NCBI RefSeq assembly: GCF_013408985.1
Contig: NZ_JACBZT010000001.1
Location: 4,853,197-4,917,196, forward strand
Direction of reading: 5' to 3'
Origin: Petropleomorpha daqingensis
GTDB lineage: Bacteria > Actinomycetota > Actinomycetes > Mycobacteriales > Geodermatophilaceae
Length of the DNA: 64,000 nucleotides
Below are positions 1,629-18,435 of the stretch, piece by piece. The notes below the pieces were generated by a model. The model had not been told where the DNA came from. It saw only the letters and a list, made by a program, of their open reading frames with translations, and did no database searches. Positions within the stretch are counted from its first letter, which is position 1. Every line of letters begins with the position of its first letter. Both the position numbers and the translations under genes were made by a program.

Positions 1629-3103
1629 CGGGTGAGCTCCTCCACCTCGGGGTCGTCGGCACCCACGTACTCGAACGACCGGACCAGCACGCTGCCGCTC
1701 GCGCTGACGACGCCGACCAACCGGCCGGTCATGCCGCCGGCCACCTCCGTCGACAGATAGCGGCCGTCGACCGCGCCCAGCTCGGTGAAGCCGGTGCCGT
1801 CGGCGACGCCGGCCGCGATCCGGTCGGGTCCGCGGGGGTCCCAACCGCCGCCGGGTGCCGGCTCCAACCGCAGTTCGAGGACGTCGTCCGCGCCGAGCGC
1901 CCGTTCGCCCAGGACGTGCCGGACGTCGCCGATCCCCCACACCGCGCGGACGGTGCCGCCGGAGACCTCCAGGTCGACGGCGTGCCGGGGATCGATGCGG
2001 ACCGAGAGACCGCCGACGCCGTCCACGTCGAGCCGGGCCCGCACCCGCGCGAACAGGTGCTCCTGGCGGCGGCCCAGGAACACGGGGTCACCGTCCTTGG
2101 CGGTGATCCGCCAGCCGTCGTCCTCGCGGACGGCGATCTCGGCCGGGAACCGGGACGCGGCCACCCACGAGAACGGCAGCGATTCCCCCGCGAGCTCCTC
2201 GCGGACGGCGACGTCGGCCGCAGCGTTGGGCTCGAGGTGGGCGGTGAGCACCGGCCAGCCGTCGTCCCAGCTCACCTCGTCGGCGAACGTCTCGCGACCG
2301 AGCACGTGCCACTCCGGGCTCGACCCCCGCGCGCGGACGCCGTGGTAGACGATCGCCCAGCTGCCGTCGGGACGCTGCACCAGGTCGGCGTGCCCGGTGT
2401 TCTGCACCGGCAGGTCCGTTCCCCGGTGCGTGAGGACCGGGTTGGCCGGGTTGCCCTCGAACGGGCCGGACACCGACCGGCTGCGAGCGATCGTGACCGC
2501 GTGCCCGCGCTCGGTGCCGCCCTCGGCGATGAGCAGGTACCACCACTCGCCGATCCGGTAGAGGTGCGGGCCCTCCGGGAACTTGCCGCCGGTGCCGGCC
2601 CACAGCCAGCGCGTCTCGCCGAGGATCTCGCCGGTCAACGGGTCGATCGGCGCCGACCGGATGCCGGACGGCACGCCGTCCTCGGCCGGGCTGGTCCACG
2701 TCATGAGGCAGGTGCCGTCGTCGTCCCAGGCCAGGTCGGGGTCGATGCCCATGACCGGGATCCGTACCGTCTCCGACCACGGACCGGCCGGGTCGTCGGC
2801 GTGCACGATCAGCTGTCCGCCGTCGTCGGACCAGTTCGTGGTGATCATCCAGAACCGGCCGTCGTGGTGCCGCAGCGTGGGCGCGAAGATCCCGCCCGAC
2901 GGGCCGGCCGTCGAGACGTCGAGCTGCGACGGCCGGTCCAGCACGCTTCCGATCTGCTCCCACGACCGCAGGTCGCCCGAGCGGAAGATCGGCACGCCCG
3001 GGGCGTACTCGAAGCTCGAGGTCACCAGGTAGTAGGTGCTGCCGACCCGGCAGATCGACGGGTCGGGGTGGAAACCGGGCAGGACCGGGCGCTGCGCGCT
3101 CAC
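1625..3103 (-). CDS. GH43 beta-xylosidase / alpha-L-arabinofuranosidase
   Basis: A 492-residue protein with the GH43 five-bladed propeller followed by a C-terminal concanavalin-like beta-sandwich (about 320-492). The expected acidic triad is visible: Asp14 in FHPDPSI (base), Asp121 in [12 protein letters not shown] (modulator) and Glu177 in FPEGPHLYR (acid). There is no signal peptide, so the enzyme should be cytoplasmic. The GTG start at 3103 shares GTGA with the upstream stop, and the protein begins directly at the propeller motif [12 protein letters not shown], so longer upstream starts are unlikely. It probably removes xylose or arabinose from imported glycosides before or after C-glycoside cleavage. 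Which pentose is hydrolysed cannot be read from the sequence. Confidence 0.88.
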
Positions 3104-4110
3104 TCGCTGCGGGTGCTGAAGGCGGCGTCGAAGGCGGCCTCCGGCTTGTCGAACAGCTTCGAGCGGACGAAGGCCAGCGCGTCGGGAGCCCCGACGAGCC
3201 GGTCCATGCCGGCGTCCTCCCACTCGACCGAGATGGGGCCTGTGTAGCCGATCGAGTTCAGCGCGCGGAAGCAGGCCTCCCAGGGCACGTCGCCGTGGCC
3301 GGTGGAGACGAAGTCCCAGCCGCGCCGCGGGTCGGCCCACGCCAGGTGCGAGCCGAGCCGGCCGTTGCGGCCGTTGCCGACCTGCCTCTTCGCGTCCTTG
3401 CAGTCCACGTGGTAGATCCGGTCGGCGAAGTCGAGGATGAACGCGACCGGGTCCAGGTCCTGCCACACGAAGTGGCTCGGGTCCCAGTTCAGCCCGAATG
3501 CCTCGCGGTGGCCGATCGCCTCCAGCGTGCGCTGCGTCGTCCAGTAGTCGTAGGCGATCTCGCTCGGGTGCACCTCGTGCGCGAACCGGACGCCGACCTC
3601 GTCGAACACGTCGAGGATCGGGTTCCACCGGTCGGCGAAGTCCTGGTAGCCGGCGTCGATCACGTCCTGGCCGACCGGCGGGAACATCGCCACGTACTTC
3701 CAGATCGCCGAGCCGGTGAAGCCGACCACCGTGTCCACGCCGAGCCGGGCGGCGGTGCGGGCGGTGTTCTTCATCTCCTCGGCCGCTCGCTGCCGCACGC
3801 CCTCGGGGTCGCCGTCGCCCCAGATCTCGTCGGGCAGGATGTCGCGGTGCCGGCCGTCGATCGGGTCGTCGCAGACCGCCTGACCCTTGAGGTGGTTGGA
3901 GATCGCGTAGACCTTCAGCCCGTACTTGTCGAGCACGGCGCGCTTCTCGTCCAGGTACGCGTCGTCAGTCGCCCCGCGGTTGGGGTCGAGGTGGTCGCCC
4001 CAGCAGGCGATCTCCAGACCGTCGTAGCCCCAGGACGACGCCAGCCGGGCGACCTCCTCGAAGGGCAGGTCGGCCCACTGGCCGGTGAACAGGGTGATCG
4101 GGCGCGGCAT
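3100..4110 (-). CDS. Sugar phosphate isomerase/epimerase-family TIM barrel
   Basis: A 336-residue AP-endonuclease-2-like TIM barrel. Candidate metal ligands lie in strand order: Glu in AHEVHPSE, Asp in [12 protein letters not shown], His in IYHVDCKD and Glu in SVEWED. This is the xylose-isomerase-like fold used by many sugar epimerases and isomerases. It differs clearly from the CGD alpha subunits of this operon (different N-terminal motif [15 protein letters not shown] and no adjacent partner of its own), so it may process the 3-keto or 1,5-anhydro sugar rather than cleave the C-glycoside. Start ATG at 4110 follows a GGGACCCCGCG region; a 31-base gap separates it from the preceding beta-subunit gene, one of the larger gaps in the operon. 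Confidence 0.82.
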
Positions 4111-4141
4111 CGCGGGGTCCCTTCTGGTGGGCGGGGGCGGG

Positions 4142-4531
4142 TCAGACGGCGGCGAGAGTGAGCGTCTTCGTGCCGCGGCCGCCGCCGGGCACCGGCATGT
4201 AGGACAACCGCAGCCGGACGGCGACGGTGACCTCGTGCTCCCCTGCGGGGAGCGGCTCGTCGGTCTCGAACGCCAGCTCCGCCCGCTCGCCGAACTCCCA
4301 CCGGTCGTCGACGACGCCCGGCATCCGGTCGAACGTGTAGGTGTTGCCGTGCACGGTGAACGTGGTCCGCTCGGCAGGGATCGGCGTCCCGTCGAGGGTC
4401 AGGTCGACGGCCTCGACCATCGACAGCCGCAGGCCGCGGTAATAGGGCATCCGCACCTCGACGACACCGCCGGGGCGGCCGTCGTCGCGGGTCCGGAAGT
4501 TCTCCTCGCAGACGATGTACTGGTCGAACAC
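4142..4531 (-). CDS. C-glycoside deglycosidase beta subunit (DUF6379 family), copy 1
   Basis: A 129-residue all-beta protein of the DUF6379 / CGD-beta family. Recognisable features are the N-terminal YIVCEENFR, the central [32 protein letters not shown] and the C-terminal [13 protein letters not shown]. In characterised systems (DgpC, CarC) this small subunit packs on the TIM-barrel alpha subunit and completes the active site that cleaves the sugar-aglycone C-C bond. It follows its alpha partner by 10 bases and starts at GTG (4531). It is a near twin of the copy at 12339-12731, and the flanking alpha genes are also close relatives, so the pair arose by duplication. The exact C-glycoside substrate is not predictable. 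Confidence 0.85.
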
Positions 4532-4541
4532 CGGGGCCTCC

Positions 4542-5570
4542 TCAGGCGGGAACGAGGGTCGACTCGACGGGATCGCCGAGGAGCCTGCGGAACATGGCGT
4601 GCTGGCGGCGGACCTGGTCGACGCTGTCGACCGGGTAGGCGTCCTGGATGTGCCGGTTGCCCTCGTACTCGCTCGACAGGTAGCCGTCGAACCCGCCCTC
4701 GACCAGGATCGGGATGATCCGGTCGTAGGGGATCGAGTACTCGACGTCCGCGCCCGTCTCGTCGACGACCATCTCGTAGAACTTCGCCTGGATGTGCCGG
4801 ATGAGCGGCATGTGGTCGAGCATCTTCCGCGGGTCCGTCCAGATGTAGTGCGCGGCCACCCGGGCCAGCTCGAACTCGCGCGGGCCGCCGCCCATGTAGT
4901 TCGTGATGTCCATGAGGGCGTGGGTGTCGCCGTGGTCGTCGTAGGTCTTGACGATGTAGTCGACGATCTGCGGGTTCGCCCCGTCGCGCAGCGCCCGCTC
5001 GCTGACCACCCGCGGGAACCGCTCGACGAAGGTCATCATGTCGGGCATCAGGCCCAGCGCCGGCGACTGCGTCCGGTGCATCACCTCGAGGTGCTGCAGG
5101 ATCCACGGGTGCTCGTAGTGGAACGGCGCGTGCACCTCGATGAGCAGTTGGACGCCCTTCTCCTCGGCGTAGGGCGCGGCGCCCTCCATGACCGCCGGCG
5201 AGGTGTTGACCGTGGCCTTGACGATCGGGAAGCCGAGGCGGACAGCCACGTCGATGTCGGTGCGGATGGAGGCGATCTGGTCCTCGAGGCTCATCCAGCG
5301 ACCGCGGTGGAGCCACGTGTCGAGGTAGGAGTTCGTGGCGGTCGGCGTCGTCCCGTACTTCTCCATCCAGCCGAACCAGGTGGCGACGAACTCGTCGGAC
5401 AGGTCGGTGAAATGGGGCAGCGACTGCTCGGGGATGATCTCCACCCCGTAGGCGCCGAGCTCGCTGCACACCCGGACGCAGTCCTCGAGCGACAGCGTGC
5501 GGAGGAAGACCTCCTCCTGGAACGAGTAGCAGCTGACGCCGCGCTTGATGCGGTGCTCTGGTTCGCTCAC
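4542..5570 (-). CDS. C-glycoside deglycosidase alpha subunit (TIM barrel), copy 1
   Basis: A 342-residue xylose-isomerase-like TIM barrel, annotated as CGD alpha because it is paired with a DUF6379 beta gene. Likely metal ligands are Glu145 (LLIEVHAP), Asp177 (LGLMPDMM), His259 (LIRHIQAKF) and Glu301 (YLSSEYEGN); the RHIQAKFYE and SSEYEG blocks recur in most alpha subunits of this island. Known CGDs bind Mn2+ and act on the 3-oxo glycoside made by an oxidoreductase, releasing the aglycone by beta-elimination. The GTG start at 5570 overlaps the upstream TGA (GTGA). Strong similarity to the protein at 12731-13711 extends over the full length. Activity on C- rather than O-3-ketoglycosides is inference. 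Confidence 0.83.
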   Translation of the reverse strand: MSEPEHRIKRGVSCYSFQEEVFLRTLSLEDCVRVCSELGAYGVEIIPEQSLPHFTDLSDEFVATWFGWMEKYGTTPTATNSYLDTWLHRGRWMSLEDQIASIRTDIDVAVRLGFPIVKATVNTSPAVMEGAAPYAEEKGVQLLIEVHAPFHYEHPWILQHLEVMHRTQSPALGLMPDMMTFVERFPRVVSERALRDGANPQIVDYIVKTYDDHGDTHALMDITNYMGGGPREFELARVAAHYIWTDPRKMLDHMPLIRHIQAKFYEMVVDETGADVEYSIPYDRIIPILVEGGFDGYLSSEYEGNRHIQDAYPVDSVDQVRRQHAMFRRLLGDPVESTLVPA

Positions 5571-6550
5571 GAACGGACTCCGATCGTCTCTGGTGCGAGG
5601 TGGCGGCCGGCCTCGGCGACCACGCCGGCCATCAGGTCGAGGCAGCGGCCGACCGGCTCGAGCTCGGCGGGCTGGTTGAGGAAGCCGTGCAGCAGACCGG
5701 GCACGGTGACCTGGCGGACGTCGACCCCGGCGAGGGCGAGCGCCGCGGTGAACGCCTCGCCAGAGGCGCGCAGGTCGTCGTACTCGGCGTTGATCACGAC
5801 CGTCGGGCCGAGCCCCTCGAGGACGGCGTTCGCCGGGAACGCGTACCCGTCCGCCGTCGACAGGGGCCCGCCGAGATAGTTCTCCGAGAGCGGGTGGCCC
5901 GCCCCGGCCTGCGGCCGGAACAGCGGCGGCAGCTCGGCGAGCTTCGCCACCAGTGCCGAGGACGGCGCGGGGACCGCCGCGTGCAGCGCCGGATAGGCCA
6001 GCAGCAGCGCGGCGGGCGCCCAGCCGTCCCGGTCGCGCAGCCTCAGCGCGGCGCCCGCGGTCAGGTTGCCGCCGGCACTCGCGCCGCCGATCGAGATCCG
6101 GACCGGGTCGATGCCGAGGGCCGCTGCGTTGTCCCGGGTCCAGGCGACAGCGGCGACCACGTCGTCGTGCGGCACCGGGTAGTGCACGCCGTCGACGGCG
6201 AGCCGGTAGTCGACGCTGACGACGACCGCGCCGGCCCGGCTGCAGACCTCCCGGGCGGTCCAGTCGGCCTCGCGCATGTCGAGGTCGCCGCCGACGAAGC
6301 CGCCGCCGTGCGCCCACACCAGGCAGGGCCGCGATCCGCCGTCGACGGATGGCTCGTAGATGCGCACCGGCACCGGGCCGTGCGGCCCGGGCGCGGCGTC
6401 ATCCCGGGTGGGCACCTCGGGCGGCTCCGACCCCCAGGTCTCGTACCGCTGGATCTGCGCCAGCCCGTCGGGCGTGGAGTACGCCTCGCGCATCGAGACC
6501 AGCCCGTCGAGCAAGGGGAACCGGGCGGCGACGTCGGGGTGGACCGGCAC
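5567..6550 (-). CDS. HSL-type alpha/beta hydrolase (esterase)
   Basis: A 327-residue alpha/beta hydrolase of the hormone-sensitive-lipase group. The oxyanion-hole motif HGGG begins at His81, the nucleophile is Ser158 in GGASAGGN, an acid candidate lies in NAEYDDLRAS and the catalytic His is in GLLHGFLNQ. No signal peptide is seen, so it is cytoplasmic. Such enzymes remove acetyl or other short acyl groups; in this operon the likely role is de-acylation of acylated plant glycosides so that the flavoprotein and CGD can act. The ATG at 6550 lies three bases after the upstream stop. The exact acyl group is unknown. Confidence 0.85.
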   Translation of the reverse strand: MPVHPDVAARFPLLDGLVSMREAYSTPDGLAQIQRYETWGSEPPEVPTRDDAAPGPHGPVPVRIYEPSVDGGSRPCLVWAHGGGFVGGDLDMREADWTAREVCSRAGAVVVSVDYRLAVDGVHYPVPHDDVVAAVAWTRDNAAALGIDPVRISIGGASAGGNLTAGAALRLRDRDGWAPAALLLAYPALHAAVPAPSSALVAKLAELPPLFRPQAGAGHPLSENYLGGPLSTADGYAFPANAVLEGLGPTVVINAEYDDLRASGEAFTAALALAGVDVRQVTVPGLLHGFLNQPAELEPVGRCLDLMAGVVAEAGRHLAPETIGVRS

Positions 6551-6553
6551 CGC

Positions 6554-7846
6554 TCAGCTCCCCTGGACCAGCGAGCGGATCAGGGCGTGCTGGCGGCGCA
6601 CCTGGTCGCGGCCGCGGCCCGGCTCTCGGCGGCCCTCGTACTCGCTGGAGAGGTAGCCGGACCAGCCGTTGTCCAGCAGCGTCGGGATGATCTGCGCCCA
6701 CGGCACGTGCAGGTCGTGCAGGTCGTCGTCGATCTCCACGAACTTGGCCTGGATGAAGTGCGTGTACGGCAGCACCTCGACGAAGTCCGACATCGGCACG
6801 GCGAGCGGCCGCAGGTGCGGGGGGATCTCCTCGCCGTCGCCGTCGACCTCCTCGGAGGTGTCGACGATGACCTCGGTGTTGAAGATGCCGGTGTCGATGA
6901 GCAGCTTGAAGTGCTCGGTGCCGCTCTTCTCGATGAACTCGACATAGCCCTGGGTCACCGGGTGCTTGATCGGCGTCGGCGTGTGGATCTCCGGGCAGAT
7001 GACGACGTCGAGCTCGGCGGCGAGGTCCAGCGAGCGCTCGACGGTCTCCTGCCAGATCGGGTGCGGGTCGAGGTCCCAGGAGATGACGCCGAACTTCGGC
7101 CGGACCGAGGTGAAGCCGAGCTCCTTGGCCAGCCGCAGGTCCAGCTGCAGCTGCTCGGCGCCCTCCTCCGCGGTCAGGTCCCGGCCGTTGTACCGGGTGG
7201 TGTCCACCCAGGAGCCGAAGTTGGTCGGCGTCAGCCCGTACTTCTGCACCAGGCCGTGCCAGGCGTCGACCCACGCCGGGTCCGGCGACGGGTAGTTCGC
7301 GATGTTGCCCTCGCCGAGGATCTCGATGCCGGTCGCGCCGAGGTCGGCGATCTCGGCGAAGACGTCCTCGAGCGTCATCGAGGTGTTGACGTCGCCGGTG
7401 TAGCTGTAGGTCGAGACGCCGTACTTGATGCCGCCCTCGGGCGCCGGCGGGACGATCACGCGCTGGGCCTCGGCACGGAAGCGGGTCCGGGCGATCAGCG
7501 GCGGGATGTACGAGCGGCGCAGGAAGATCGTCACCTCGATGTGGTGCACGCCCGTGCTCAGGCCTCCGGGCTTGGGCACGGTGATCGTGGCCGGCTCGTC
7601 GAGCTGCCAGCGCACGTCGGTCGAGGCGCGCAGCTCGTCGAGGGTGAAGGTGCGGCCCTGCAGCGTCCACAGCGGCACGTGGTCGGGGATGCGCTCGCCG
7701 TCGACGACGACCTCGACGCCGTCGAGCATGCTGCCCGGGCCGCCGCGGTAGTTGGGGTTGCGCAGCCGGAAGGAGAAGCCGGTCACCCGGCCGTCCTCGA
7801 CGACGTTGCGGAAGCCCTGCCCCTGTATGACCGGGAACTCGAGCAC
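6554..7846 (-). CDS. Fused C-glycoside deglycosidase: beta domain + alpha TIM barrel in one chain
   Basis: A 430-residue fusion. Residues about 1-130 form a DUF6379-like beta domain (FRLRNPNYRGGPGSMLDGVEV, WTLQGRTFTLDEL, IFLRRSYIPPL). A short Pro-rich linker IVPPAPEGG follows, then from about 140 a complete CGD-alpha-like TIM barrel. Candidate metal ligands are Glu286 (CPEIHTP), Asp318 (LLIDTG), His363 (THFIQAKF) and Glu402 (LSSEYEGRR). Elsewhere in this window these are separate genes, and in the alpha-beta pairs of this operon the order is reversed. The SD-like AAGGGAG sits well before GTG 7846; the alternative GTG at 7852 overlaps that SD and would add two residues. Placed directly after two GMC oxidoreductase genes. 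Substrate unknown; the domain assignment is confident. Confidence 0.85.
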   Translation of the reverse strand: MLEFPVIQGQGFRNVVEDGRVTGFSFRLRNPNYRGGPGSMLDGVEVVVDGERIPDHVPLWTLQGRTFTLDELRASTDVRWQLDEPATITVPKPGGLSTGVHHIEVTIFLRRSYIPPLIARTRFRAEAQRVIVPPAPEGGIKYGVSTYSYTGDVNTSMTLEDVFAEIADLGATGIEILGEGNIANYPSPDPAWVDAWHGLVQKYGLTPTNFGSWVDTTRYNGRDLTAEEGAEQLQLDLRLAKELGFTSVRPKFGVISWDLDPHPIWQETVERSLDLAAELDVVICPEIHTPTPIKHPVTQGYVEFIEKSGTEHFKLLIDTGIFNTEVIVDTSEEVDGDGEEIPPHLRPLAVPMSDFVEVLPYTHFIQAKFVEIDDDLHDLHVPWAQIIPTLLDNGWSGYLSSEYEGRREPGRGRDQVRRQHALIRSLVQGS

Positions 7847-7848
7847 TG

Positions 7849-9414
7849 TCACTCCCTTTCCGAGGCCGCGACGAGCGCGGTGTCCGACCCGGTGGCCAGG
7901 CGCCGGGCGATGTCCCGGGCGCCGCCGACGGCGAGCGCGACCGAGGTGAGCGTGGGGTTGCAGGCGATCGGCGTCGGGATCACGTTGTTGCCGGCGACGT
8001 ACAGGCCGGCGACGCCCCAGACCTCGCTGGTCGGGCCGCACACCGAGGTGCCGTCGTCCGCCGGGCCCATCCGGGTGGTGCCCTGGTAGTGCAGCGACGC
8101 GCCACCCGAGAGCATCAGCGGCTCGTCCCCGATGAACTCGCCCAGCGACCGGGCCGCGCGCAGGATCGACTCGCGCGCCCGGGCGATCGTCTCGTGGTCG
8201 CGCTCGGTCAGCCGGTAGCGGATCCGCGGCTTGGGCATCCCGTAGTCGTCGGTCTCGGTGTCGGAGAACTCGACGCGGTCGCTCTCCTGCAGGTCCTTGC
8301 CGCAGAACCAGCCCAGGCCCACGATGCTGCCCGGCGCCGGGACGTCGTCGCCGACGAGCGGGATCGGCGAGGCGTCGAGCTGCATGACCTGGCCGTGGAA
8401 CGGGTCGGCGTCGGTGTAGGGCACCCACTGCACACCGCTCTGCTCGGTGATCGCGGTGTCGCCCCGGGGGTCGTGCTGCTCCTCGGCGGTGTGGGCGACG
8501 TCGGTCAGCCGGACGGCGAACACCATCTGCGGCTGGTCGTTGAGGTAGCGCCCCAGCGCCTTCGGGCGGATGCCGGAGGCGAACAGCACCTGCGGGGTGC
8601 GCAGGGCGTCCGCGGCCACGACGACGTACCGGGCGCGCACCTCGTGCTCGGCGCCGTCGGTCAGGTCGCGGACGACGACGCCGACCGCGCGGCCGTCCTC
8701 GACCAGCACCCGCCGCACCGGCGCCGAGGCGAACAGCGCGAAGTTCGGGTTCGACCGGGTGACGTCGCCGAAGACGATGTCGGCGCCGCTCCAGACGAGC
8801 GCGCCGTCGTCCCGCCGGTGCACGGCGAGCGGCATGGGCTGCACCCGCCGCTCCTCGGGCCGTCCGCGGTCGAACTCCGCGGCCAGCCGCTCCCGCACCA
8901 CGTCGGCGTAGGGCGCGTCGTCGAACGGGTGCCGGTCGACGCCGAGCAGCCGCTCGCCCTCCCCGATCAGCTCGTCCAGGTCGGGCACGAAGTCGATCCG
9001 CTCGGCGTCGCCCGGCCGCGGGCAGGCGCAGGTCCAGTGCGCGCCCATCCCGCCGACGTTGGTCGACATGGCGATCGCCGGGATGCCGTCCTCCCCCGGC
9101 TCCTGGAACCCCTCGGGCAGCAGCGAGGTGCCCGGCCGGACGACCCGCTTGGACGGGTCGGAGTAGGCCGCCTCCTCCTTGGTCGCGGTGTGCGGCCGCA
9201 CGCCCTCGGAGCGGCGCTGCGCGACCAGCCGCTCGTCGAGGTCGGCGATGTTCTTCACGTGCATGCCGGGCGGGTCGGTGAGCACCGGACCGGCCTCGAA
9301 CAGCGCGATCGTGGCGCCGCGCGCCTGCTCGGTGAGGATCCGCGCGTAGGCCGCGCCGGTCGGCCCGCTGCCGACGATGGCGACGTCGACGTGGGTGGGG
9401 AAGGTCCTGCTCAT
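7849..9414 (-). CDS. GMC-type FAD-dependent oxidoreductase (C-glycoside 3-oxidase candidate), copy 1
   Basis: A 521-residue flavoprotein. The N-terminal FAD-binding Rossmann motif is GSGPTG (residues 15-20), with the acidic residue after beta-2 in LFEAGPV. The C-terminal substrate domain carries GASLHYQGTTRMG, with His442 as probable catalytic base, and the FAD-contact region AGNNVIPTPIACNPTLTS with Asn486, the classical His/Asn pair of GMC and pyranose-2-oxidase-like enzymes. Family members CarA and related proteins oxidise the C3 hydroxyl of C-glycosides, the step that makes the C-C bond labile for CGD. ATG at 9414 overlaps the upstream stop by four bases. Oxygen versus another acceptor, and exact glycoside, cannot be decided here. 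Confidence 0.87.
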   Translation of the reverse strand: MSRTFPTHVDVAIVGSGPTGAAYARILTEQARGATIALFEAGPVLTDPPGMHVKNIADLDERLVAQRRSEGVRPHTATKEEAAYSDPSKRVVRPGTSLLPEGFQEPGEDGIPAIAMSTNVGGMGAHWTCACPRPGDAERIDFVPDLDELIGEGERLLGVDRHPFDDAPYADVVRERLAAEFDRGRPEERRVQPMPLAVHRRDDGALVWSGADIVFGDVTRSNPNFALFASAPVRRVLVEDGRAVGVVVRDLTDGAEHEVRARYVVVAADALRTPQVLFASGIRPKALGRYLNDQPQMVFAVRLTDVAHTAEEQHDPRGDTAITEQSGVQWVPYTDADPFHGQVMQLDASPIPLVGDDVPAPGSIVGLGWFCGKDLQESDRVEFSDTETDDYGMPKPRIRYRLTERDHETIARARESILRAARSLGEFIGDEPLMLSGGASLHYQGTTRMGPADDGTSVCGPTSEVWGVAGLYVAGNNVIPTPIACNPTLTSVALAVGGARDIARRLATGSDTALVAASERE

Positions 9415-10916
9415 CGGGTCGCTCCGAGGTCGGTGGCCAGCGCCCGCGCCCCGCGCACGGCGAGGGCGACGCTGGTGAGGGTCGGGTTGCACGAGTTCGC
9501 GGTGGGGATCAGGCCGTTGCCCGCGAGGACGAGGCCGGGCACGCCCCAGACCCGCGAGTCGGCGTCGCAGACGCTCGTGCCGTCGTCGGCGGGCCCCATC
9601 CGGAACGTGCCCATGAAGTGCAGAGAGGTGCCCGGGGGCATCACCCGGGGCTGGTCCTCGACGAACTGACCCAGCACGCCGGCGGCCCGGGCCTGGAACT
9701 TCTTCGCCGCCTCGATCTCGGCCTCCTCACGCTCGGTGAGGTCGTAGGCGATGACCACGCCGGGCAGGCCGTTCTCGTCGGGGGTGCCCTCGTCGAACGT
9801 CACCCGGTCCTCCGGCCGCGGGAACTTGCGCACCCCGTAGCCGACCATCGCGTAGCCGGCCGGGTTGTCCCGGTACGGGCTGCCCTCGGGCAGCGGCACC
9901 GGGCAGACCGGGGAGTACATCAGCTGCGCGTGGAAGGGGTGCCCCTCGCCGAACGCGATCGACACCACACCGCGGATCGGGTCGGTCTGCAGCCGGCTGT
10001 CGCGGTCCGGCGGCGGCAGCACGCCCTCGCGGACGGCGACGATGCCGAACACCAGCGGGTGCTCGGTCAGGTACCGGCCGAGCGCCTCCGGGCGGATGCC
10101 GGAGTTCCAGAGCAGCTGCGGGGTGCCGAAGGCGTTGGCGGCGACGACGACCGCGTCGGCGCGCACCTCCTCCTCGGCCCCGGTCCGCTGGTCCCGGAGC
10201 ACCGCGCCGACGACCCGGTCGTCCTCGCGGAGCAGCCGGACGGCGAGCGTCTCGGGGCGCAGCTCGAAGCGGTCGGCGTGCGCGCCCTCGGCCAGCGGGC
10301 CGAGGACGACGTCGGTGCCGCTCCACCGCAGCGTGCCGTCGGCGCGCGGGTCGGCCGCCACCGGCAGCGGACGCACGGTGACCCCGTCGCCGGCGAACTC
10401 CGCACCGACCCGCTCGAGGATCGCGCCGGCCTGCGGCGAGTCGCCGAACGCGCTGCCGGTGACGTGCAGCAGCCGCGAGGCCTCGTCGAGCAGCTCGTCG
10501 AGGTCGTCGAGGAAGTCGATCCGCTCGCTGGCGACCGGCCGCGGCGTCGCGCAGGTCCAGTGCACCCCCTGGCCACCGACGTTGGCGGAGACCGCGGCGG
10601 CGGGGAGACCGGTCGAGCCTTCTGCCGGCCGGCCGATCAGGTAGGTGCCGAACCGGGCGGTGATCGTGCCCTCGGCGGCGGTACCGCCGGGCAGCGCCGC
10701 GGCGCCCGCGGTGTGCTCGCCCCGGCCCTGCGAGGCCGCTCGGGCGCGGTACTGCTCGGCCGGGTCGGCGATGTTCTTGGCGTTCATCCCGGGCGGGGTG
10801 GAGACGACCGGGCCGGCCTCGACCATGAGCACGTCGACGTCGGAGGTCTGCTCGATCAGCAGCCGGGCGTAGGTGGCGCCCGTGGGCCCGCTGCCGATGA
10901 TCAGGACGCGGCTCAT
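9411..10916 (-). CDS. GMC-type FAD-dependent oxidoreductase (C-glycoside 3-oxidase candidate), copy 2
   Basis: A 501-residue paralogue of the next gene, sharing the FAD motif GSGPTG near the N-terminus, the segment GMNAKNIADPAEQ, a quinone/flavin-side motif NVGGQGVHWTC, and the C-terminal GTSLHFMGTFRMG (His433) and AGNGLIPTANSCNPTLTS (Asn477). The middle of the substrate domain diverges much more than the FAD domain, which fits different substrate specificity. It is directly coupled (ATGA) to the alpha-subunit gene upstream and to its paralogue downstream. Oxidation of the glycosidic sugar at C3 is inferred from relatives of the CarA group. If it is an oxidase it will release hydrogen peroxide, which may explain the redoxin gene earlier in the operon. 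Confidence 0.87.
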   Translation of the reverse strand: MSRVLIIGSGPTGATYARLLIEQTSDVDVLMVEAGPVVSTPPGMNAKNIADPAEQYRARAASQGRGEHTAGAAALPGGTAAEGTITARFGTYLIGRPAEGSTGLPAAAVSANVGGQGVHWTCATPRPVASERIDFLDDLDELLDEASRLLHVTGSAFGDSPQAGAILERVGAEFAGDGVTVRPLPVAADPRADGTLRWSGTDVVLGPLAEGAHADRFELRPETLAVRLLREDDRVVGAVLRDQRTGAEEEVRADAVVVAANAFGTPQLLWNSGIRPEALGRYLTEHPLVFGIVAVREGVLPPPDRDSRLQTDPIRGVVSIAFGEGHPFHAQLMYSPVCPVPLPEGSPYRDNPAGYAMVGYGVRKFPRPEDRVTFDEGTPDENGLPGVVIAYDLTEREEAEIEAAKKFQARAAGVLGQFVEDQPRVMPPGTSLHFMGTFRMGPADDGTSVCDADSRVWGVPGLVLAGNGLIPTANSCNPTLTSVALAVRGARALATDLGATR

Positions 10917-11929
10917 CGCACGACCGCGGGCTGGGACTCGAGCAGCCGCTTGAGCATGTCGTGCTGCGCCCGGATCTGGTCGAAGACGTTCCAGCGGTCG
11001 CTGTAGGCGTGCGCCTCGTACTCGCTGGAGATGAACCCCTCGTAGCGCTGCTCGACCAGGACGCGGGCGACCGCGGGCCAGTCGATGGAGGGATCCTCCC
11101 CGTCGACGATGCCGTAGAACTTGCCGTGCACGTGCACCACGTGCGGGAAGAACTCGGCCCAGCGCTCCGGATCCATCCGGCCGTGCATCGTGAACAGCAT
11201 CTTGAGGTTGCCGATCTGCGGCGGCGTCGCGCCGGCCTCGGCGGCCCGGGCCTCCAGCTCGGGGAACTTCTCCGCGGTCAGGCCGGGCGAGGCCCACAGC
11301 TCCTCGGTCAGCGCGGTGAGCTCGGGAGCGATGCCGGCGGCGCGGTGCGCGTCGTGCACCGCCTCCGGTACGGCCCGCATGCTCGCGCTCATGTCCGGGA
11401 TGAAGCCCAGCCACGGGGTGTCCAGCCGGGTGAAGGTCTCCTTGAGCGCGGCGACCGGCGGGGCGTCGATGGTCAGCGGGGCGTGGATCTCCACCCCGAT
11501 CTTGACGCCGAGCTCCTCGGCCAGCGGCAGCAGCCGTTCCAGGGTGCCTGGGGAGGTCTCCACGCCGACGCGGGTGACCGGGAAGCCGAGCGCCGCGGCG
11601 CCGCGGACCTGGACGGCGACGTACTCGTAGGACTCGTCGTCGGTCAGCAGCCGGCCCGGGTACAGGCCGAGGTCGTTGTTGATCGCCAGGCAGGACGGCG
11701 TCAGCCCGGAGGACTCGATCACCTCGCGGACCTCGCGGACCTGCTCGGCGGTGGGCCGGGGCCAGCCGCGCAGGCTCTGGAACGCAACCATCTCCAGGCC
11801 GGGGCCGAGGTCGCGGGCGGCGACCTCCTTCACCAGGTAGGCGAGGTCGCGGCCGGGCTTGCGCTGCTCGAGGGTGAGGCTGAACAGGGTGGTGCCCAGG
11901 CGCGGCAGGCCGGGTGCGGTGTCGGTCAT
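10913..11929 (-). CDS. C-glycoside deglycosidase alpha subunit (TIM barrel), divergent copy
   Basis: A 338-residue TIM barrel related to but clearly diverged from the 4542 and 12731 copies. Candidate metal ligands are in GVEIHAPL (Glu), LGFIPDMSA (Asp), HVHGKFYG (His) and ISSEYEAH (Glu). The N-terminus RLGTTLFSLTLEQ and the insertion around ARAAEAGATPPQIG resemble the protein at 17455 more than the others, and both sit next to the same beta sub-type. ATG at 11929; the partner beta gene ends two bases upstream. Predicted role: cleavage of a 3-oxo-C-glycoside, with a substrate different from that of the other pairs. Confidence 0.8.
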   Translation of the reverse strand: MTDTAPGLPRLGTTLFSLTLEQRKPGRDLAYLVKEVAARDLGPGLEMVAFQSLRGWPRPTAEQVREVREVIESSGLTPSCLAINNDLGLYPGRLLTDDESYEYVAVQVRGAAALGFPVTRVGVETSPGTLERLLPLAEELGVKIGVEIHAPLTIDAPPVAALKETFTRLDTPWLGFIPDMSASMRAVPEAVHDAHRAAGIAPELTALTEELWASPGLTAEKFPELEARAAEAGATPPQIGNLKMLFTMHGRMDPERWAEFFPHVVHVHGKFYGIVDGEDPSIDWPAVARVLVEQRYEGFISSEYEAHAYSDRWNVFDQIRAQHDMLKRLLESQPAVVR

Positions 11930-11931
11930 GG

Positions 11932-12336
11932 TCAGGCTCCCGCGGCGGTGAGGGTCTTGTCGGTCCAGGACGGCGCCACGAGCGGGACCCGGTCCGGGCC
12001 GGTGAGGATGTAGGGGATCGACAAGCCCAGCAGCAGCTGCACCCGGTGGGTGCGGCCCGGCGCGGTCTCGACCGGGACGTGCAGGACGGCGGGGTCGGTG
12101 GTGAACCAGTACTCCTCGCCCCGCACGGCCAGTTCGGCGAAGCAGAAGCGCCGGCCGTTCACCGTCACGGCCAGCGAGGCGGGGTCGATCCGCTCGCCGT
12201 CCACGGTCAGGTCGACCTTGGCCAACGAGGGCAGCGGCAGCGCCCGGTACCAGTGCGTGTAGATCGCCACATCCAGGCCATCGGGGGTGGCGGTGAGCGA
12301 GTCCTCGCGCACCACCTGGTCGTCGAGGGGACCCAC
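11932..12336 (-). CDS. C-glycoside deglycosidase beta subunit (DUF6379 family), type B
   Basis: A 134-residue all-beta protein with the signature YTHWYRALPLPSLAKVDLTVDGE, a later FCFAELAVRGEEYWF and the hydrophobic end LGLSIPYIL. It shares the WYR(A/S)LPL block and the IPY(I/L) ending with the 17081 protein, whereas the 4142 and 12339 copies carry PYYRGL and YMPVPGGGR. The window therefore holds at least two beta sub-types. It precedes its alpha partner (10913-11929) by two bases and starts at GTG 12336, two bases after another beta gene; two different beta genes in tandem are unusual. Structural role inferred from DgpC/CarC. Confidence 0.8.
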   Translation of the reverse strand: MGPLDDQVVREDSLTATPDGLDVAIYTHWYRALPLPSLAKVDLTVDGERIDPASLAVTVNGRRFCFAELAVRGEEYWFTTDPAVLHVPVETAPGRTHRVQLLLGLSIPYILTGPDRVPLVAPSWTDKTLTAAGA

Positions 12337-12338
12337 GG

Positions 12339-12731
12339 TCAGTTCCTCCCTGCGAGGATGAGCAGTTTGCGATCACGGCCGCCGCCGGGCACCGGCATGT
12401 AGGAGATGCGCAGCCGCACCGAGACGGCGACGTCGTGCTCGCCCGGGGCGAGCGGCTCGTCGGTCTCGAAGGCGAGCTCGGCACGCTCCCCCATCTCCCA
12501 GCGGTCGTCGAAGACCTCCGGGAGCCGGTCGAAGGGATAGGTGTTGCCGTGCACGGTGAACGTGGTGCGCGACGATGGGACGGGGACCCCGTCGAGGGTG
12601 AGGTCGACGGCCTCGACCATCGACAGGCCCAGGCCGCGGTAGTACGGCATCCGGACCTCGACCACGCCGCCGGGGCGGCCGTCGTCCCTGGCCCGGAAGC
12701 CCTCCTCGCAGACGATGTACTTGTCGAACAT
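12339..12731 (-). CDS. C-glycoside deglycosidase beta subunit (DUF6379 family), copy 2 of type A
   Basis: A 130-residue protein nearly the same as the 4142 copy over its whole length: [41 protein letters not shown] and [16 protein letters not shown] at 12731 shares its A with the stop of the alpha gene (TGATG), so alpha and beta should be made in equal amounts. With its alpha gene it forms a 1.4 kb module that is a duplicate of 4142-5570. The few differences cluster in loops and the extreme C-terminus (ILAGRN against LTLAAV). Confidence 0.84.
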   Translation of the reverse strand: MFDKYIVCEEGFRARDDGRPGGVVEVRMPYYRGLGLSMVEAVDLTLDGVPVPSSRTTFTVHGNTYPFDRLPEVFDDRWEMGERAELAFETDEPLAPGEHDVAVSVRLRISYMPVPGGGRDRKLLILAGRN

Positions 12732-13707
12732 CAGGCGTCCTCCCCCAGGAGCCGGGCGAACAGGGCGTGCTGACGGCGGACCTGCTCGACGCTGTCGACC
12801 GGGAACGCGTCCTGGATGTGCCGGTTGCCCTCGTACTCGCTGGACAGGTAGCCGTCGAAGCCGCCCTCCACGAGCACCGGGACGATCTCGTCGTAGGGGA
12901 TCGAGAACTCGGTGCCGTCGTCGGTCATCTCGTAGAACTTCGCCTGGATGTGCCCGATCAGCGGCATGTGCGGGAGCATCGTCCGCGGGTCGGACCAGAT
13001 GTAGTGGGTGGCCTGGCGGGCGAGACCGAACTCCACCGGGCCGCCGTGCCGGTAGTTCACGATGTCGGCCAGCGCGTGGGTGTCGCCGTGGTCGTCGTAG
13101 GTCTTGACGATGTAGTCCACCAGCGTCGGGTCCGCGCCCTCGCGCAGGGCCCGCTCGCTGACCACCCGCGGGAAGCGCTTCACGAACGTGCCCATGTCGG
13201 GCATCAGGCCCAGGGCCGGCGAACCGGTCCGGTGCATGACCTCGAGGTGCTCGAGGATCCACGGGTGCTCGTAGTGGAAGGGCGCGTGCACCTCCAGCAG
13301 AAGCCGGACGCCCTTCTCCTCGGCGTAGGGCGCCGCGCCCTCCATGACCTCGGGCGGGGTGTTGATGATCGCCCGGATGATGCGGGCGCCCAGCCGCACA
13401 GCGATGTCGATGTCGCGGTGCACCGAGGCGACCTGCTCCTCGAGGGTCAGCCAGCGGCCGGGGTGGCGCTTGGTGTCGAGGAACAGGTCGGTGGCGACCG
13501 GCGTCGTCCCGTACTGCTCCATCCACGAGAACCAGTCGTCGACGAAGGCGTCGGACAGGTGCGGGAAGCCGGGGATCATCTGCTCGGGGATCAGTTCGAT
13601 GCCGTTGGCACCGAACTTCGCCGAGGCGGCGATGCAGTCCTCGAGCGACATCTGCCGGAGGAAGTACTCCTCCTGGTACGAGTAGAGGCTGACGCCCCGC
13701 TCGATGG

Positions 13708-13711
<4 letters not shown>
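12731..13711 (-). CDS. C-glycoside deglycosidase alpha subunit (TIM barrel), copy 2
   Basis: A 326-residue paralogue of the 4542 protein with the same blocks: ERGVSLYSYQEEYFLR, GIELIPEQMIPGF, LLEVHAPFHYEHPW (Glu ligand), LGLMPDMGTF (Asp), LIGHIQAKFYE (His) and YLSSEYEGNRHIQDA (Glu). Both copies keep the whole putative metal site, so neither looks degenerate. ATG at 13711 overlaps the stop of the ABC ATPase gene. Differences from copy 1 concentrate in the region after AVRLG (ARIIRAIINTPPEV against FPIVKATVNTSPAV), possibly affecting substrate choice. Function by family and pairing with a DUF6379 protein; substrate unknown. Confidence 0.83.
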
Positions 13712-17068: not shown

Positions 17069-17074
17069 TAGAAC
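17069..17074 (+). promoter_or_regulatory. Candidate -10 element of a leaderless transcript (CGD pair 5)
   Basis: TAGAAC ends exactly six bases before the GTG at 17081, and no SD sequence lies between. This geometry matches transcription starting at the start codon, common in actinomycetes, and is repeated at other genes of the window. No convincing -35 is seen. Confidence 0.35.
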
Positions 17075-17080
17075 GACCGG

Positions 17081-17458
17081 GTGTTCGCCCGCCACCTCGT
17101 CGAGTCGGCCACCCTGACCGACGACGCGCTCGAGCTGTCCGTCCGGCTGAACTGGTACCGCAGCCTGCCGCTGTCCTGCGTCGAGCAGCTCGGGGTGCGG
17201 CTGGACGGCGAGGCCCTCGCCCCGGCCACGCTGGAGGTCGACGGCGTCCGCTACGGCGTCGCAGACCTGGCGGCCGCCGACGACAGGTGGTGGCACGTCC
17301 TCGACTCCGCCCTGGTCCGGGTGCCGCTGGAGCGGACGCCGGGGGCGGGCCGGCACGAGGTCGAGTTCGTCCTCGGCAGCCGGATCCCGTACCTGGTGGC
17401 CCCGGACGGCTCCGCCGCGGTCATCGCCGACAGCGCCCGTGCCGAGGTGGCCCGATGA
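17081..17458 (+). CDS. C-glycoside deglycosidase beta subunit (DUF6379 family), type B, divergent pair
   Basis: A 125-residue all-beta protein. It shares LNWYRSLPLSCVEQLGVRLDGE and VLGSRIPYLVAP with the 11932 protein, placing both in the same beta sub-type. GTG at 17081 is the start; there is no SD, but a -10-like TAGAAC six bases upstream suggests a leaderless message. It overlaps the next gene by four bases (ATGA), so beta and alpha are co-translated, here with beta first. It is transcribed away from the main operon from a shared 210-base control region, so both units may answer to one regulator. No such regulator gene is adjacent. Confidence 0.8.
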   Translation: MFARHLVESATLTDDALELSVRLNWYRSLPLSCVEQLGVRLDGEALAPATLEVDGVRYGVADLAAADDRWWHVLDSALVRVPLERTPGAGRHEVEFVLGSRIPYLVAPDGSAAVIADSARAEVAR

Positions 17459-18435
17459 GCGCGCCCGGCCTCGGCGTGATGCTGTTCAGCCTCGGCGGCG
17501 AGTTCTACCGGCGGCGGATGTCGCTGTCCGGGTGCCTGGAGGCCGTCGCCTCGCTCGGCCCCGACCAGGGCATCGAGCTGATCGGCGCGCAGAGCCTGCG
17601 CTCCTACCCGGACGTCTCCGCCGCCGAGGTGCGGGACTTCCGGGAAGCGGTCGAGCGGACCGGCGTCGTCCCGGTCTCGTACTGCGCCTACCTGGAGCGG
17701 GCGCGCTCCCGGTCCCGCGCGCTGTCGCCGGTGGCGGCGCTCGAGCTGCTCGAGCAGGAGATCGCGACCGCCCGCGCGCTCGGCTTCCCGATGGTGCGGC
17801 TCAACACCGCGACCCCGGAGGTGCTGCGCGCACTCGCCCCGCTCGCCGACCGGACCGGCGTCGAGCTGGTCGTCGAGCTGTCGAAGGAACCGCGCACCGA
17901 CCCCGGGACGGCGGAGCTGCTCGAGGAGCTCGACCGGCTGGCCTGCCCCGCGCTGGGGGTGATCCAGGACTTCAGCGCCTTCGTGCGGCGGGTGCCGCAG
18001 CCGTTCCTCGCCGACGCGGCCGCCGGCGGCGCGCCGGTCGCCGCCCTGGAGGCGGTGACCGGGGCCTGGGCGGCCGGGCAGCCCGTGGACGCCGCGGTGG
18101 ACGCCGTCCTGTCGCTGGACCTCTCCCCCGCCGAACGGGGCCAGGCGGTGCAGGCCGCGCACATCACCTACGCCCTGTTCCCGCGCGGCGAGGCGGCCGG
18201 CCTGGCCGACGTCCTGCCCCACCTGCGGCACGTGCAGGCGAAGTTCTTCGCCCTCGACGGGGCCGGTACCGAGCCCTGCGTGCCCCACGCGGAGCTCATC
18301 GCGATCCTGCGCGACGGCGGCTACGCCGGACGGATCCACAGCGAGTTCGAGGGCTTCCTCTGGGACGACGACCTCGACGCCATGGAGCAGCTGCGCCGCC
18401 ACCAGGCCGACGTCGTGCGCCTCTGGGCGGCCTAG
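17455..18435 (+). CDS. C-glycoside deglycosidase alpha subunit (TIM barrel), divergent pair
   Basis: A 326-residue TIM barrel, the most divergent alpha of the five. Candidate metal ligands: Glu in LVVELSKEP, Asp in LGVIQDFSAF, His in LRHVQAKFFAL and Glu in IHSEFEGFLW. The HVQAKF block matches HIQAKF of the others, and SEFEG replaces SEYEG. The N-terminus LGVMLFSLGGEFYRRRMSL is shared in style with the other copies (SYQEEYFLRQMSL). ATG 17455 overlaps the beta stop. Missing are the long HYEHPWIL loop residues found after the first Glu in copies 4542 and 12731, so the sugar or aglycone pocket must differ. Confidence 0.78.
   Translation: MSAPGLGVMLFSLGGEFYRRRMSLSGCLEAVASLGPDQGIELIGAQSLRSYPDVSAAEVRDFREAVERTGVVPVSYCAYLERARSRSRALSPVAALELLEQEIATARALGFPMVRLNTATPEVLRALAPLADRTGVELVVELSKEPRTDPGTAELLEELDRLACPALGVIQDFSAFVRRVPQPFLADAAAGGAPVAALEAVTGAWAAGQPVDAAVDAVLSLDLSPAERGQAVQAAHITYALFPRGEAAGLADVLPHLRHVQAKFFALDGAGTEPCVPHAELIAILRDGGYAGRIHSEFEGFLWDDDLDAMEQLRRHQADVVRLWAA

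Follow-up and report, generated by a model that had tools for sequence, protein, structure and literature searches.

A predicted single-chain C-glycoside deglycosidase in Petropleomorpha daqingensis and its fused and split relatives

Introduction

C-glycoside deglycosidases (CGDs) encoded by two genes are built of alpha-beta heterodimer units, with the active site located at the subunit interface (PMC8563793). AgCGD2 (7DNM, CarB2-C2) and PuCGD (7BVR, DgpB-DgpC) are two-chain enzymes in which the alpha subunit bears a four-helix lid. EuCGD (DfgA/DfgB) of Eubacterium cellulosolvens (7BVS, 7DRE) is likewise made of two chains, assembled as an alpha4-beta4 octamer; its alpha subunit has 290 residues, and the lid domain is absent from DfgA (PMC8563793). 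Replacement of Tyr39-beta of PuCGD by Phe is reported to lower activity on 3-keto-C-glucosides by more than 99%, and that on the O-glucoside 3-keto-phlorizin only 2.4-fold (PMC10628242). The first step of C-glycoside breakdown in soil bacteria is carried out by GMC-type oxidases (PMC10807413, PMC10646112). Two further entries, 8QRZ and 8UN2 (the latter a cryo-EM structure), were released on 2025-04-23 under the title 'Microbacterium testaceum C-glucosyl deglycosidase (CGD)'. A search of the open-access literature, a scope outside which most subscription journals fall, yielded no paper on the M. testaceum structure or on any CGD fusion.

Here a gene coding for a fused beta-alpha protein is analysed in a 64,000-nucleotide stretch (the window) of the genome of the soil bacterium P. 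daqingensis. A preliminary description, made from the letters alone, had proposed that this gene encodes a natural single-chain CGD.

Architecture of the fusion gene and protein

The fusion (P0002) occupies positions 6554-7846, as first described, and lies on the minus strand. It is one open frame of 430 amino acids, with a GTG start at 7846 and a TGA stop ending at 6554. The beta domain is recognized by Pfam as CGDB (PF19906, 'C-glycoside deglycosidase beta subunit') at residues 5-113 (7508-7834, minus strand), with E 1.9e-38 and 131 bits against a cut-off of 27.6. CGDB is presumably the former DUF6379, and the beta-domain matches in the PDB agree with this, since they include a 'DUF6379 domain-containing protein'. 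The alpha domain, an AP_endonuc_2 TIM barrel, spans residues 163-424 (6575-7360, minus strand; Pfam, E 3e-14). NCBIfam assigns no family to the protein.

From the reading of the junction and the strands predicted on both sides, the linker is the nonapeptide VPPAPEGGI, residues 132-140 (7427-7453, minus strand), which in the AlphaFold2 model sits between strands E120-131 and E141-145. The junction is an open frame without a stop. A Pro-rich linker is a feature of the clade of the window protein and not of the other clades.

Predicted structure and comparison with solved CGDs

The AlphaFold2 model drew on 39 sequences from the window and the loci, including 12 partial ones, and scored a pLDDT of 89.5 and a pTM of 0.90; its weak stretches are residues 34-37, next to Tyr33, and the region around 331-340. 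The structure alignment included all 26 fused loci and, of the ten split loci, the alpha part of seven and the beta part of five. When the sequence was compared with solved structures, residues 2-427 matched 8qrz_A (E 5.5e-137), and the other CGD entries listed matched the fusion as separate alpha and beta chains. By fold, 8qrz matched over 425 of 430 residues (Z 49.0, 2.3 Å) with both domains superposed, and 8un2_A over 424 residues (Z 48.9). Both domains and their relative placement thus agree with the solved single-chain CGD. The next-best matches to the model were EuCGD DfgA chains (Z 38.6 and 37.2); the alpha barrel matched solved separate CGD alpha chains with Z 32.5-38.6. Together, the Pfam domains, the predicted fold and the full-length match to 8QRZ/8UN2 bear out the proposal of a beta-alpha single-chain CGD.

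The M. testaceum CGD is, like the fusion, one chain with beta before alpha; the two are 52% identical over the full length, and its printed sequence has Gln at the same metal position as Gln366 of the fusion. It differs in its placement: its closest relatives are six fused rows (76-84% identical) that form a separate group, parted in the trees from the clade of the window protein by two-gene members. EuCGD shares the lid-less alpha subunit, 38-41% identical to that of the fusion, and its beta subunit is matched with E 1.3e-20; it differs in its two-chain, octameric form and in having His, in the printed alignment, where the fusion has Gln. Both folds of AgCGD2 and PuCGD are common to the fusion, which also agrees with AgCGD2 at six of the seven metal or catalytic positions, but these two enzymes consist of two chains, their alpha subunit bears the lid and their barrels are only 20-26% identical to that of the fusion.

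The view that no fusion of this order had been described therefore fails, since 8QRZ and 8UN2 (April 2025) already show the same architecture in a single chain. The suggestion that the fusion shows a need for 1:1 contact of the subunits adds little, because the two-gene enzymes had already been shown to be alpha-beta units with an interface active site. The fusion is real and widespread, but its kind is already represented by two deposited structures. The surprise is small, and the value lies in the fused and split relatives that can be compared.

Metal site and catalytic residues

Roles of residues were assigned by homology, with AgCGD2 numbering (PMC8563793). The fusion has E286, D318, K368 and E402 at the places of the metal ligands Glu147, Asp179, Lys271 and Glu305, and H288 and E404 where AgCGD2 has its catalytic His149 and Glu307. 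The position of the ligand His269 is taken by Gln366 (codon at 6749-6751). Of the four putative metal ligands claimed for the barrel at the outset, E286, D318 and E402 are thus exact, while the fourth, equivalent to His269, is Gln.

The six other metal or catalytic positions, H288 and E404 included, were invariant in all 47 alpha rows. Gln at the His269 position was found in 32/32 fused rows and in 14 of the 15 split rows, the exception being L076 with His. The Gln-for-His change is therefore not a mark of fusion, because it is common to fused and most split rows. Alanine at this position lowered the activity of PuCGD and MiCGD (PMC8563793), and the substitution raises the question of whether the metal preference is unlike that of the His-type enzymes. 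In the beta domain, Tyr33 aligns without gaps to Tyr39-beta of PuCGD. Two separate alpha subunits in the window, at 4542-5570 and 12731-13711, also carry Gln in place of the AgCGD2 ligand His.

Gene neighbourhood

The fusion lies in a tight run of minus-strand genes (3100-12336) coding for beta, alpha, two GMC oxidases, the fusion, a hydrolase, alpha, beta and an AP_endonuc_2 barrel. Three adjacent gene pairs in this run overlap by 4 nt, with the starts that we chose. The run looks like a C-glycoside catabolic operon. Directly upstream of the fusion is a GMC-family oxidase gene (7849-9414, minus strand), whose stop lies 2 nt before the GTG of the fusion. Its product resembles pyranose oxidase / C-glycoside 3-oxidase; the NCBIfam pyranose oxidase model gave it 226.6 bits, below the cut-off of 544.9. 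This gene overlaps by 4 nt with that of a second GMC-family oxidase (9411-10916, minus strand; GMC_oxred_N and GMC_oxred_C). Directly downstream of the fusion is the gene of an alpha/beta hydrolase (Abhydrolase_3; 5567-6550, minus strand). The run also includes a separate alpha subunit that is a paralogue with Gln at the metal position (4542-5570, minus strand; GTG start of our choice) and its presumed partner, a separate CGDB beta subunit (4142-4531, minus strand). Four separate alpha/beta pairs are present in the window, in line with the earlier remark that the other family members here are two genes. At 17072-18435 there is another CGDB gene, on the plus strand, and after it comes an oppositely oriented gene for an AP_endonuc_2 barrel.

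Matches to the GMC proteins of the window were present in 31 of the 36 loci of relatives. At 13/26 fused and 10/10 split loci, a GMC match on the strand of the beta part ended less than 100 nt upstream of it; in the remaining 13 fused loci, the match lay elsewhere in eight and there was none in five. The five loci among the 36 that gave no match to these proteins include the four gammaproteobacterial fusions. In one of these (L057) the gene upstream of the fusion codes for an FAD_binding_3 flavoprotein (4800-5927), and in another (L075) for a Gfo/Idh/MocA oxidoreductase (4566-5765), with a Pfam GMC gene downstream (8640-10274). The substrate may thus be prepared or used differently at these gammaproteobacterial loci.

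Occurrence of the fusion

In its own family, 15 of 112 genomes gave matches at E <= 1e-20. The full-length in-frame fusion is present in 14 of the 112, its own included; the other 13 proteins are 73-82% identical, and on reading each proved to be one open frame. The family genome G100 has only a distant match, as separate genes. At the thresholds used, matches were rare in the samples of the class (5/394 genomes) and the phylum (2/396), the own genome being counted in each; the other five genomes comprised two with fused and three with split forms.

A scan of named genomes gave 36 loci, 26 fused (11 of which repeat family proteins) and ten split. Short peptide patterns taken from the fusion itself were used, so the scan favours close relatives and its fused-to-split ratio is biased. 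Named relatives in the own branch are Geodermatophilaceae, e.g. Geodermatophilus, Blastococcus and Klenkia. Fused loci were also found in Streptomyces, Actinomadura, Actinocorallia and Microbacteriaceae and at the four gammaproteobacterial loci. Frames were read for the loci other than L032, L037, L038 and L039, which are distant or duplicate the places recorded as L035/L036, and other than the paralogue fragments L003-L018 of the own genome.

Proposed function and alternative explanations

The fusion is best explained as a single-chain CGD of the short, lid-less DfgA/DfgB-like type, predicted to cleave 3-keto-C-glycosides (probability about 0.88 for the explanation as a whole). Its architecture, conservation, predicted fold and neighbourhood were computed, and the reaction, the substrate and the roles of residues are inferred from homologues. 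The 3-keto-C-glycosides cleaved would likely be those made by the neighbouring GMC oxidases. In the proposed mechanism, the upstream GMC oxidase would oxidise the sugar C3 of a plant C-glycoside, and the resulting 3-keto-C-glycoside would be bound at the interface between the beta sandwich and the TIM barrel of the fusion. There the divalent metal of the barrel (E286/D318/Q366/K368/E402) would act on the sugar, His288 would serve as base/acid and the ionised phenol would be held by the beta-domain residue Tyr33, so that the C-C bond could be cut by beta-elimination. Both halves of one active site would thereby be held in one polypeptide, and the protein would be a one-gene enzyme for C-glycoside cleavage. 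Against this assignment stand Gln366 in place of His269, a point countered by the same Gln in the M. testaceum CGD, and the GMC oxidase, which is not a fixed partner across the fused loci.

A different activity, as a single-chain lyase, epimerase or isomerase, e.g. an O-glycoside 3-keto eliminase, is unlikely. The barrel belongs to the sugar isomerase type and the metal His is replaced by Gln, and a TIM-barrel enzyme, AtOGE, beta-eliminates 3-keto-O-glycosides (PMC10628242). The same paper, however, describes AtOGE as having no second subunit and PuCGD as needing its beta subunit and Tyr39 specifically for C-glycosides; the fusion has both the beta domain and the Tyr39 equivalent, and its nearest solved relative was deposited as a C-glucosyl deglycosidase. 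That a frameshift in sequencing or assembly falsely joined two genes has a negligible probability, even though in the nearest two-gene relatives beta and alpha can be read as overlapping by 4 nt, so that a single indel would join them. The same junction is in frame in 13 other family genomes (73-82% identical), in other families and in other phyla, and this excludes such an artefact, for which the junction had originally been flagged for reading; the M. testaceum protein was, moreover, deposited as one chain in two structures.

Another proposal concerns the cause of the fusion rather than its activity, namely that it evolved to keep subunits from pairing wrongly where a genome has many CGD copies. 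The genome of the window has eight CGDB domains, five of them within the window and two of the eight fused, as this proposal would have it. Yet ten of 30 genomes chosen for a fused member have a single CGDB match, the median number of matches is 3 in these 30 against 2 in 13 genomes chosen for a split member, and the beta subunits of PuCGD and EuCGD, when swapped, failed to cross-pair (PMC8563793). The counts, made by hand at E <= 0.001 with six matches below the family cut-off, cover 43 of the 44 chosen genomes (all except that of L057), for 24 of which completeness is not given; in these 43 genomes, CGDB copy number gave no explanation of the fusion. Avoidance of mispairing is thus an improbable cause.

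Evolution of fused and split forms

In all 13 split pairs read, beta precedes alpha, and alpha can be started so that the two genes overlap by exactly 4 nt; the start codon chosen for alpha was one close to the end of beta, which in L036 is one of three candidates. With genes overlapping in this way, a single indel could bring beta and alpha into one frame. Trees were computed for alpha (32 fused and 15 split rows) and for beta plus alpha (32 fused and 13 split), after 11 duplicate rows had been dropped. Two paralogues from the window served as outgroup in N-terminally truncated form, starting at 5525 and 13600 (likelier starts 5570 and 13711).

Both trees need two changes between the fused and split states, and in both, ten split rows stand between one group of six fusions, which includes four from named Microbacteriaceae, and another of 26. 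Forcing a single fused clade costs 6.0 log units on the alpha tree (AU p 0.134), which is not a rejection, and 7.9 on the beta-plus-alpha tree (AU p 0.041), a marginal rejection. The starred branches force two changes on the beta-plus-alpha tree and only one on the alpha tree. Two fusions and a fusion plus a fission have equal cost on the trees; two fusions are slightly more attractive, because the same 4-nt overlap occurs in inner and outer split rows. As a joint scenario, we give slightly better than even odds to an origin of single-chain CGDs twice from 4-nt-overlapping beta-alpha pairs (or once, with one fission) and a spread of the fused form through the family of the window's genome, other actinobacteria and a gammaproteobacterial group. 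If this is true, the subfamily would provide one active site in both a fused and a split natural version, with barrels about 60% identical. The alpha part of the split relatives is 58-64% identical to that of the fusion (ten loci), and these relatives permit a test of the role of covalent linkage in a two-subunit active site. The evolutionary picture, with split pairs overlapping by 4 nt and two fused/split changes, is the addition made by this analysis.

A second fused CGD, 62% identical, is present in the same genome outside the window (G000:C1:4830216-4831490, L002); in the beta-plus-alpha tree its branch is long and leaves at the base of the 26-fusion group. G876 and G878, both sampled because of a split member, contain in addition CGDB matches in fusion-sized frames of 435 and 432 residues.
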